Below, piece by piece: positions 18,232 to 53,908 of a stretch of DNA of 64,000 nucleotides. The translations under genes and the position numbers were made by a program. The first letter of the stretch is position 1, and every line of letters begins with the position of its first letter. The notes beneath the pieces are model-generated. The model did no database searches, was not told the origin of the DNA, and was given only the letters and a program-made list of their open reading frames with translations. The DNA comes from Promethearchaeota archaeon (GTDB lineage Archaea; Asgardarchaeota; Lokiarchaeia; Sigyniarchaeales; SOKP01), in the NCBI GenBank assembly GCA_030606485.1, contig JAUWGH010000004.1, forward strand, positions 124,001-188,000, given 5' to 3'.

Positions 18232-18472
18232 AATATTAATGTTTTCATTTAAAAATTAAATAATAGAATAATACCTAAATATTAGGTAGATTTGAATTTA
18301 AATTCCAAAAAAATAAATTTGAAAATTTCTATATCTATATCATTAAAAAATAATTTATATGACGAGTTTAGTGTAAATCAATTATTATATCACTATTATA
18401 TATGTTATTTATTTAAAAATTGAAAAATTTAGATAAAAATTTAATTACAAAAAATAGGAGTGTGATTATATA

Positions 18473-19722
18473 ATTACAGATAATGGTCATTATACTTCTA
18501 ATTTCACTACGAAATACCATATCATAGCAAATTATAAAGTAAATGGAGTGGTTGAAAAGAGCGATATTGTCGGTGCCATTTTTGGGCAAAGATAAATAGC
18601 CACTTCGGTCATATCGCCTAAACCGAAGGTCTTTTATCGGATTTAGACTTAAGGGATTTACAAAAAAGTGGGAGAATAGGAAGAATTGAGGTCGAATTAA
18701 CGACCGAAGAGGGAATATCTAAAGGAACAATAATTATTCCTTCAAGTCTAACAAGAAAAGAGACCGTTTTATTGGCAGCGACAATAGAAACCGTGAGTCG
18801 AGTAGGTCCTTGTTCCGCACAAATTGACCTAGAAGATATCAAAGACATTCGCGAAGACAAAAGAAAACAAATTATCAAACGAGCAACGGAATTATTAAAA
18901 AAATGGGATGAGAATAGTCCCGAACCTAGGGAAATTGAAGAACAAATTTCTCAAGATATAAGACTTAGTGAAATTAAAAAATGGGGGCCTGAAAATTTAC
19001 CTGCAGGTCCTAATGTTGATATTAGCCCAGATCTCATAATAGTTGAAGGAAGAGCAGACGTCTTAAATTTAATGCGTATAGACATCAAAAATGCTATTGC
19101 AGTGGAAGGCACTCAAATACCTAAGTCAATAATTGAATTAATTCGTAATAAAAGCCCAATTACTGCTTTTTTAGATGGAGACCGGGGAGGCACAATAATC
19201 TTAAATGAATTATTACAAGTGGCACACCTTGATTATGTTGCAAGAGCTCCTGATGGGCTTGAAGTTGAAGAATTAACAAGAAAACAGATGGTTAAAGGTC
19301 TTCAAAATAAGAGACCAGTTTCAGAGATAGTTAATAATAAAAATTTATCAGTAGATATACCGCGTAAGGGGAAAACAGTAATTGAAAAAAAAATAAAAGA
19401 TTCGAAGAATAAATATAAAAATATTTTAAAAATATTGAAGCTCAATAAAGGGTCAAAAATTGCTGAGTATATTTCTAACTCTAAAATAACAAAAAAAGCA
19501 ATTGGAATTGACTCAGAGGAAAATATTCTTTTTGAATTAGATACTTCGGAAGTATTTGATAATTTGAGTGAATTTTCCACTATTAAATACTTAATATTGG
19601 ATGGTATTTTATCTAAAAGACTAATTTCCTTGGCAATAAAAATGAAAATAGATGCAATCATTTGCGTTGGAACAGAAGAAAATTTAAAAATTCCAAGACA
19701 AATAAAAGTTATAAAAGTTTAA
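18473..19722 (+). CDS. dnaG: DnaG-like primase/exosome subunit, gene interrupted by a 32-nt intron
   Basis: Archaeal DnaG, a TOPRIM protein associated with the exosome. Exon 1 (to 18589) encodes TKYHIIANYKVNGVVEKSD and ends IVGAIFGQ. Exon 2 (18622-19722) resumes TEGLLSDLDLRDLQKSGR and continues through the TOPRIM motifs LIIVEGRADVLNL and AFLDGDRGG to the stop. The family reads IFGQTEGLL across this point, so removing 18590-18621 gives an intact protein of about 405 residues. The piece removed has a bulge-helix-bulge fold (separate entry). No ATG, GTG or TTG lies in frame upstream of TKYHII. The frame is open from 18458, and GGAGTG at 18457 is followed by ATA (18470) and ATT (18473), the likely start. 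The C-terminal 120 residues are poorly conserved. Its end overlaps the convergent OsmC gene. Confidence 0.85.
18590..18621 (+). other. Predicted bulge-helix-bulge intron in dnaG mRNA
   Basis: GGGC (18584-18587) pairs with GCCT (18616-18619), giving the 4-bp central helix. AAA at 18588-18590 and AAA at 18620-18622 are the two 3-nt bulges. GATA (18591-18594) pairs with TATC (18612-18615) as the inner helix. Cutting after the second base of each bulge, as the archaeal splicing endonuclease does, removes exactly 18590-18621 (32 nt) and joins CAA to ACC in the frame that gives GQTEG. The outer helix on the exon side is weak. A separate 7-bp pairing CTTCGGT/ACCGAAG is also possible in the precursor. 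Confidence 0.75.
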
Positions 19723-26313: not shown

Positions 26314-26416
26314 GCCAAGGTGGCGTAGCCCGGTAATGCTGGAGACTCCCAGTGTTGGGTATGAACGCACCAGACTGAAGATCTGGGTATCGCGAGTTCA
26401 AATCTCGTCCTTGGCA
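26314..26416 (+). tRNA. tRNA-Phe(GAA) with D-loop intron
   Basis: Acceptor GCCAAGG/CCTTGGC, discriminator A. Anticodon stem CCAGA/TCTGG with loop CTGAAGA (GAA). D-stem GCGT/ACGC. Between G18-G19 and the last D-loop bases lies a 29-nt insertion (26334-26362). Removing it gives the D-loop AGCCCGGGA and a normal 74-nt tRNA. Confidence 0.9.
26334..26362 (+). other. Predicted BHB intron in the D-loop of tRNA-Phe
   Basis: Inner helix AATGCTGG/CCAGTGTT (with wobbles), 3-nt bulge GGT, 4-bp helix GCCC/GGGT, then a bulge ATG followed by an A-A mismatch and the D-stem. Cutting GG^T and AT^G gives the predicted mature D-loop. Confidence 0.65.
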
Positions 26417-30180: not shown

Positions 30181-30428
30181 AATGAACTCTATTCTTCTAT
30201 TCTCTTTTTACCTATATATATTTAATTTATCCAATAATAATATTAATAACTAATGTATAAAAATCCAATGAAAAATCCTTCTGTTAATATTTCGACTTTA
30301 ATTTTGATTGCCATATCTCATTAATTTAAATTTAATTGTATTTATTTATCTTAATGGAGGTTTTTTATTATTTTTTCTTTGTAATATTTCAAATTAAAGA
30401 AATATACTTTATTTTATTGAAATTCTAG

Positions 30429-30531
30429 TAGGAACGGAGGGATTTGAACTTTCGGAAAACCCCCGAAACGGGGATCTTTCCCCGACCCTTGGCTCCGAAG
30501 GCCACCGCTCTATCCGCTGAGCTACGTCCCT
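30429..30531 (-). tRNA. tRNA-Arg(UCG) with T-arm intron
   Basis: Acceptor AGGGACG pairs with CGTTCCT, discriminator A. D-stem GCTC/GAGC. Anticodon loop CTTCGGA (anticodon TCG), stem with one mismatch. Variable loop GGGTC. The T-arm is interrupted by 30 nt (30450-30479); removing them gives T-stem GGGGG/CCCTC (one G-U) with loop TTCAAAT. Confidence 0.88.
30450..30479 (-). other. Predicted BHB intron in the T-stem of tRNA-Arg
   Basis: 4-bp helix TCGG/CCGA, bulges GGA and AAG, inner helix AAGATCCCCG/CGGGGGTTTT of ten pairs with wobbles and loop TTT. Cutting GG^A and AA^G removes exactly the 30 nt that must leave to restore the T-arm (after position 52). Confidence 0.75.
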
Positions 30532-32218: not shown

Positions 32219-32323
32219 GCCCCTATAGTGTAGCCCGGTCTTCGTAAACTCGATAATGAGTTCCGGCCGAGAGCATTCGGGACTGTCACTCCTGCGACGC
32301 GGGTTCAAATCCCGCTGGGGGCG
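32219..32323 (+). tRNA. tRNA-Asp(GUC) with D-loop insertion
   Basis: Acceptor GCCCCTA/TGGGGGC, discriminator G, followed by CCA in the DNA. Anticodon stem CGGGA/TCCTG with loop CTGTCAC (GTC). T-stem GCGGG/CCCGC with loop TTCAAAT. D-stem GTGT/GCAT with wobbles. The D-loop holds about 28 extra nt between AGCCCGG and CCGAGA. Without them it resembles other archaeal Asp D-loops. Confidence 0.9.
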
Positions 32324-32462
32324 CCAATATTTTTCTTAGATTGATATTTATCTTAGTTTATCTAATACCTATAAAAGAAAAAAAAATAAATTTAAATTAA
32401 TTTGGAAAAAAAAAGAAAAGGAAATTTTTTGTGTTACCTTATTAATTTACTTAAAGCTAAGC

Positions 32463-53763: not shown

Positions 53764-53791
53764 TATTTCTTTTAAGAGATTTAAAAATTAG

Positions 53792-53908
53792 CGCAGATGG
53801 AGGGATTTGAACCCCCGAGCGCTTTCACGCACTGGCTTTATAGGTAAAATAATCTTTTACTATTTAATTGCTCCAAGCCAGCGTCTTACCAGTCTAGGCT
53901 ACATCTGC
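53792..53908 (-). tRNA. tRNA-Ser(GGA) with anticodon-loop intron
   Basis: Acceptor GCAGATG/CATCTGC, discriminator G. Long variable arm TGCGTGAAAGCGCTC, so class II. Anticodon stem CTGGC/GCCAG. Intron of 33 nt at 53838-53870 at the canonical position 37/38; spliced loop is TTGGAGA (anticodon GGA). Intron contains the hairpin GTAAAA/TTTTAC. T-loop TTCAAAT. Confidence 0.9.

Follow-up and report, generated by a model that had tools for sequence, protein, structure and literature searches.

The essential + strand dnaG gene of the analysed stretch (the window, 64,000 nucleotides, C2:124001-188000 of the 3.75 Mb Lokiarchaeal host genome G000) is interrupted by 32 nt, which are very likely a bulge-helix-bulge (BHB) pre-mRNA intron removed by the tRNA-splicing machinery. 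Splicing was inferred, and there is no RNA evidence for it. We hold this reading with high but not complete confidence, and it was the only explanation we found to fit all the observations. Several lines support it: excision at the predicted cut positions restores the reading frame exactly, a helix covaries across lineages, the inserts include every length class modulo 3, one phase-0 junction is interrupted in some genomes and not in others, additional sites share the geometry, and the same genome has genes for splicing endonuclease subunits and RtcB. The locus is composed as follows.

18473-18589, + strand: dnaG exon 1, encoding ITDNGHYTSNFTTKYHIIANYKVNGVVEKSDIVGAIFGQ; homologous to intron-less relatives, start codon uncertain
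18584-18587, + strand: 5' strand of the central 4-bp helix, GGGC (Gly codon plus the C of the Gln codon); its third base covaries with 18617
18588-18590, + strand: 5' bulge AAA, predicted cut at 18589/18590
18590-18621, + strand: intron, 32 nt, AGATAAATAGCCACTTCGGTCATATCGCCTAA; same sequence in four species-level genomes of the genus
18591-18615, + strand: inner (intron) hairpin, in which GATA (18591-18594) pairs with TATC (18612-18615)
18616-18619, + strand: 3' strand of the central helix, GCCT, within the intron
18620-18622, + strand: 3' bulge AAA, predicted cut at 18621/18622
18622-19722, + strand: dnaG exon 2, TEGLLSDLDL...IKVIKV, stop at 19720-19722

Exon 1 ends with ...VGAIFGQ, the last base being 18589. 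When the sequence is read without splicing, exon 1 gains one residue and the next codon is TAA, an in-frame stop. Excision of 18590-18621 gives ...VGAIFGQ followed by TEGLLSDLDLRDLQ, so that the junction FGQ/TEGLL is restored exactly, and the peptide across the exon junction becomes GAIFGQTEGLLSDLDLR. The joined protein matched NF003108 (archaeal DNA primase DnaG) at positions 1-418 of 419, and joining raised the score by 54 bits; exon 2 by itself matched positions 27-418 only. G000 has one dnaG. The claim of an earlier note that dnaG lies in two frames separated by 32 nt at FGQ/TEGLL thus held, both in the sequence and in the restored protein.

Most of each frame is free of stops, which would suit two separate DnaG polypeptides, one per frame. 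However, exon 2 has no in-frame start-like codon upstream of 18772, about 50 residues in, the split falls inside the conserved FGQTEG motif, and the four different insertion sites in dnaG described below would each need working halves. We regard this explanation as very unlikely.

The BHB anatomy is shown directly by the bases. The sequence of 18584-18622 is GGGC AAA GATA...TATC GCCT AAA, and cutting each bulge between its second and third bases would excise exactly 18590-18621. The GGGC/GCCT helix, the AAA bulges, the GATA/TATC inner helix and the in-frame removal by canonical cuts had all been described in the earlier note and held base for base. Its description of the motif as textbook held only in part. 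The core follows the canonical form, but an outer (exon-exon) helix is not clearly present at this site. For the 39-nt segment that runs from the central helix through the 3' bulge, the minimum-energy fold is the BHB core, but with 55, 66 or 91 nt of context alternative folds beat it by about 4-11 kcal/mol. An outer helix does not strictly define the class, because most crenarchaeal cbf5 introns have an unconventional BHB (PMC2738675). In this genus the intron also contains 7-nt complements of both exons (ATATCGC against GCGATAT of exon 1, CTTCGGT against ACCGAAG of exon 2), and this complementarity is largely retained in L007. It could be due to chance, be a nuisance beaten by co-transcriptional folding or the enzyme, or act as a switch; we could not decide among these possibilities.

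We searched 228 Asgard genomes for dnaG and obtained a match in 210. The same codon boundary in phase 0 (site A) was broken in 23 genomes of family f1, to which the host belongs, and uninterrupted in 35 others of that family; it was also broken in f2 (G149), f29 (G227) and f19 (G139, G140). Intron-less homologues were common. The site-A inserts are diverged and 29-43 nt long. Every residue class modulo 3 is represented, and therefore the insert generally cannot be translated through. The alignment of other Lokiarchaeia dnaG genes that the earlier note had proposed as a check was thus run, and its outcome was in favour. In addition, two dnaG genes were present on different contigs (L047, L053) of one bin (G059), one without and one with the intron; these could be two copies or reflect a mixed bin.

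G000-G003 and three GenBank MAG contigs (L032-L034) all carry the 32-nt insert without a difference. Some of these contigs are possibly the same assemblies as some of the genomes analysed; the four genomes are mutually distinct. The fifth genome of the genus, G004, has a diverged 29-nt insert. Among G000-G003, exon 2 showed dS of 0.05-0.23 and dN of 0.014-0.035, with 0/32 differences in the intron, and dnaG of the genus is under purifying selection. These data bear on the explanation that the 32 nt are a frameshifting insertion, either in a dnaG pseudogene or through sequencing or assembly error. In its favour, dnaG as written is out of frame, with an in-frame stop. Against it stand the identical insert in separate genomes and MAG contigs, the many genomes in which this junction holds a diverged insert, and a single-copy gene under selection. 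The identical insert together with the low dN relative to dS indicated neither error nor a decaying gene; the error version in particular is refuted by the independent assemblies that carry the insert, and the explanation as a whole is all but excluded.

Each of the 27 site-A loci, which comprise 21 distinct inserts, has a 4-nt helix between two 3-nt bulges, and in 27/27 the junction that restores the frame coincides exactly with the motif core; exact frame restoration is thereby shown. BHB-like motifs of comparable quality occurred in the window at about 3.5e-4 per position-and-length (2043 matches), yet the core was at the junction in every locus, so the motif at site A is more than chance. 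The central helix has four pairs in 25/27 loci, and three plus G.A in the two f19 loci, where G.A replaces the outer pair and the joined product is LEG instead of TEG.

Conservation with covariation is also shown. The third base of the helix falls on the wobble position of the exon Gly codon, which is free to vary, and this base covaries with its intron partner: GGG occurs with GCCT or GTCT, GGA with GTCT or GTTT, GGC with GGCT, GGTT or GGCA, and GGT with GGCT. When collapsed to lineages, the exon wobble and intron bases paired in 13/13 cases against 6.1 expected from shuffles (p about 9e-5). With the structure given, 90.5% of cells were paired over the 21 distinct inserts, compared with 76.1 when shuffled and 23-50 when slid. 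The covariation score was 0.413 against 0.134 +/- 0.026 in shuffles (0/500 as high), and every slid control scored below the true structure. The shuffle and slide controls do not completely remove the relatedness of the sequences. RNAalifold, unaided on the alignment, predicted the central helix only; the inner helix covaries when counted, although it was not predicted.

Two further explanations were weighed against these data. In translational recoding, the ribosome would hop or shift over the insert with the RNA intact, as in bypassing of phage T4 gene 60, and the insert is indeed short and hairpin-forming. However, there is no landing codon to match the take-off codon CAA/CAG, nearly all site-A loci have an insert ending in TAA, the helix and its two bulges are maintained by covariation exactly at the junction, and the same geometry recurs at other dnaG sites and in cbf5. 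Recoding is very unlikely. A remnant of a group I or II intron, or another self-splicing element, could be considered since archaea do have group I and II introns (PMC6125680, PMC8919778), but 29-43 nt is far too short, and nothing in Rfam reached the gathering score near the dnaG locus. This class is all but excluded.

Three additional dnaG insertion sites were found in other Asgard genomes, up to about 40 nt away, giving four sites in total. In f18, inserts of 28-31 nt lie at TEGL/LGED in phase 1; their helices are of the GCCT/GGGT type and their bulges are ACA/AAT. The carriers are eight genomes of a single clade (SH-aLRT 100); seven loci were read automatically, and L083, the eighth, only by eye. 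The insert of G038 is 30 nt long and lies in SDI in phase 2, with three pairs plus one mismatch and bulges ATA/AAA. G146 has 37 nt at VE/RPD, with helix GTAG/CTAT and bulges AAA/ATA; neighbouring registers of the 37-nt removal also restore the frame, and the register with the full motif was chosen.

Repeated gain or loss of the intron is shown, and the number of events is less clear. The dnaG of G038 is nested in the gene tree among intron-less genes that differ by 13-47 per 690 bases, and because of this nesting among similar genes its intron is probably a recent gain. No copy of this intron was found elsewhere in G038 with up to 3 mismatches. At site A the gene tree requires at least 11 changes, only 2 of which are forced by well supported branches, and it leaves the number of site-A origins undecided. 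Since the f1 site-A sequences resemble each other and their presence is patchy, we lean towards one old gain followed by repeated loss in f1, without considering the matter settled.

A search for further copies of the intron across the genus, with up to 3 mismatches, found none. A covariance model built from the site-A intron (R1) matched dnaG alone in the window. In the five genomes of the genus it matched dnaG and gave weaker matches, of which those examined were in or antisense to intact frames and were rejected as false. As the model favours dnaG-like introns, it gives no census of other genes. A relaxed scan of the window for BHB with a joined frame gave 38 matches, mostly considered chance or gene borders; only dnaG was checked closely.

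The cbf5 gene of the host is uninterrupted. In 15/15 cbf5 loci examined from f19, f20, f23, f26, f8 and G160 (f4), the codon for the catalytic Asp of GTLDP is split by 17-41 nt.

L122-L125, L127-L129, L131-L138: cbf5 loci split at the catalytic Asp codon

These inserts have the 4-bp helix and 3+3 bulges, and GTLDP was exactly restored in 15/15 loci examined. This ratio is not a frequency, because the loci were chosen for a broken family match. A second cbf5 site, INLD/KPPGP, was found in f18 (L117, L119), with 41-42 nt, helix CTGG/CCGG or CTGG/CCAG, and bulges ATA/AAA. The crenarchaeal cbf5 intron likewise disrupts the catalytic codon (PMC2738675), and with this codon interrupted in Crenarchaeota as well as in Asgard archaea, one may ask whether they share an old cbf5 intron. 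A joint MAFFT alignment of dnaG and cbf5 introns was useless. The phenomenon thus goes beyond the earlier note, reaching other Asgard families, several dnaG sites and Asgard cbf5.

In the mechanism we propose, GGGC of exon 1 would pair with GCCT at the 3' end of the intron, so that each exon-intron border would carry a 3-nt bulge. The splicing endonuclease, with a catalytic and a non-catalytic subunit in a putative (alpha-beta)2 form, would cut after the second base of each bulge, and RtcB would join the exons to yield uninterrupted DnaG. Cutting and joining in the cell and the identity of the enzymes responsible are inferred, without RNA evidence.

The presence of the enzyme genes is shown. 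The host genome has two PF01974 genes for splicing endonuclease subunits, L104 and L105, and an RtcB gene, L106. L104 (199 aa; L104:1174-1773) shows the Tyr/His/Lys pattern of catalytic subunits. In L105 (206 aa; L105:1447-2067) the His is apparently missing, as judged by eye. An (alpha-beta)2 assembly of one catalytic-looking and one non-catalytic-looking subunit is inferred from sequence alone. The heteromeric type of endonuclease has been linked to relaxed motifs and cbf5 pre-mRNA introns (PMC2738675). The best structural match of L104 was 3p1z, which we take to be the Aeropyrum enzyme, as the K44-P45-R46 numbering matches. The alignment was free of gaps through NKPR opposite EKPR, the K44-P45-R46 segment, and roles of these residues in the Aeropyrum (alpha-beta)2 splicing endonuclease have been described (PMC12397907). 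Because the Lokiarchaeal catalytic subunit has a K-P-R segment resembling the Crenarchaea-specific loop, this loop possibly is not specific to Crenarchaeota. ARAGORN with introns allowed predicted four probable intron-bearing tRNA genes in the window, with intron borders unchecked.

26314-26416: probable intron-bearing tRNA gene, Ser CGA
30428-30531: probable intron-bearing tRNA gene, Pro CGG
32219-32326: probable intron-bearing tRNA gene, Arg CCG
53791-53908: probable intron-bearing tRNA gene, Ser GGA

The subunit and RtcB genes and these apparent tRNA introns count in favour of the BHB reading, with enzyme activity on dnaG RNA being inferred. The points against it are the lack of a clear outer helix, the competing folds, the RNAalifold prediction of the central helix only, the f19 exception (G.A and LEG), the nonstandard dnaG start and the absence of RNA evidence.

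Like the dnaG intron, the crenarchaeal cbf5 pre-mRNA intron (Watanabe 2002; Yokobori 2009, PMC2738675) has a BHB or BHB-like motif cut between the second and third bulge bases; it is 16-44 nt long and patchy with losses, its removal restores the frame, and its hosts have a heteromeric endonuclease (PMC2738675), as is inferred for the dnaG host. The dnaG case differs in the gene, the phylum, the several insertion sites in one gene and the evidence of recent gain; moreover, splicing of crenarchaeal cbf5 was demonstrated on cDNA, whereas that of dnaG is inferred. Archaeal tRNA and rRNA BHB introns have the core motif and the presumed enzymes in common with the dnaG intron, which unlike them is in a protein-coding gene rather than a structured RNA and has no clear outer helix. 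The HVO_1309 mRNA of Haloferax volcanii is also a substrate of the splicing endonuclease, but its BHB sites are in the 5' UTR (PMC7714728), while the dnaG intron interrupts the coding frame.

A 2020 paper named the crenarchaeal cbf5 mRNA as the sole additional BHB intron reported in archaea (PMC7714728), which together with PMC2738675 agrees with the earlier note, where cbf5 is given as the known case of an intron of this kind. A 2024 Asgard paper described many introns in tRNA only (PMC11291895). In the open-access literature searched, which excluded subscription papers and preprints, we found neither introns in dnaG nor BHB introns in any protein-coding gene of Asgard archaea reported. The dnaG insert is very likely a known kind of intron in a new gene and a new phylum, with unusual evidence of recurrent insertion, the splicing being inferred. 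Asgard archaea are regarded as the nearest archaea to eukaryotes. With dnaG, a second gene after cbf5 has putative BHB introns, in several Asgard families, at four sites, with patchy presence and one probable recent gain, and it becomes directly testable how protein genes of archaea gain and lose enzyme-spliced introns. Both dnaG and cbf5 are likely annotated as broken in many Asgard genomes. A bolder reading, which we offer only as a possibility, is that Asgard protein-coding BHB introns are living and recurrent, with new insertions ongoing at preferred places in genes of RNA-processing factors (dnaG, cbf5), and that splicing may gate expression, for instance if the RNA switches between the BHB and the competing exon-intron pairing present in this genus.

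At the 5' end of dnaG, ATG, GTG and TTG are absent in frame between the upstream stop at 18455 and 18548, and ATT at 18473 or ATA at 18470 are possible starts. The missing standard in-frame start at the expected 5' end is a trait of the whole genus. A GTG preceded by GGAG is located near the dnaG start, out of frame, and its spacing to the coding frame differs between species.
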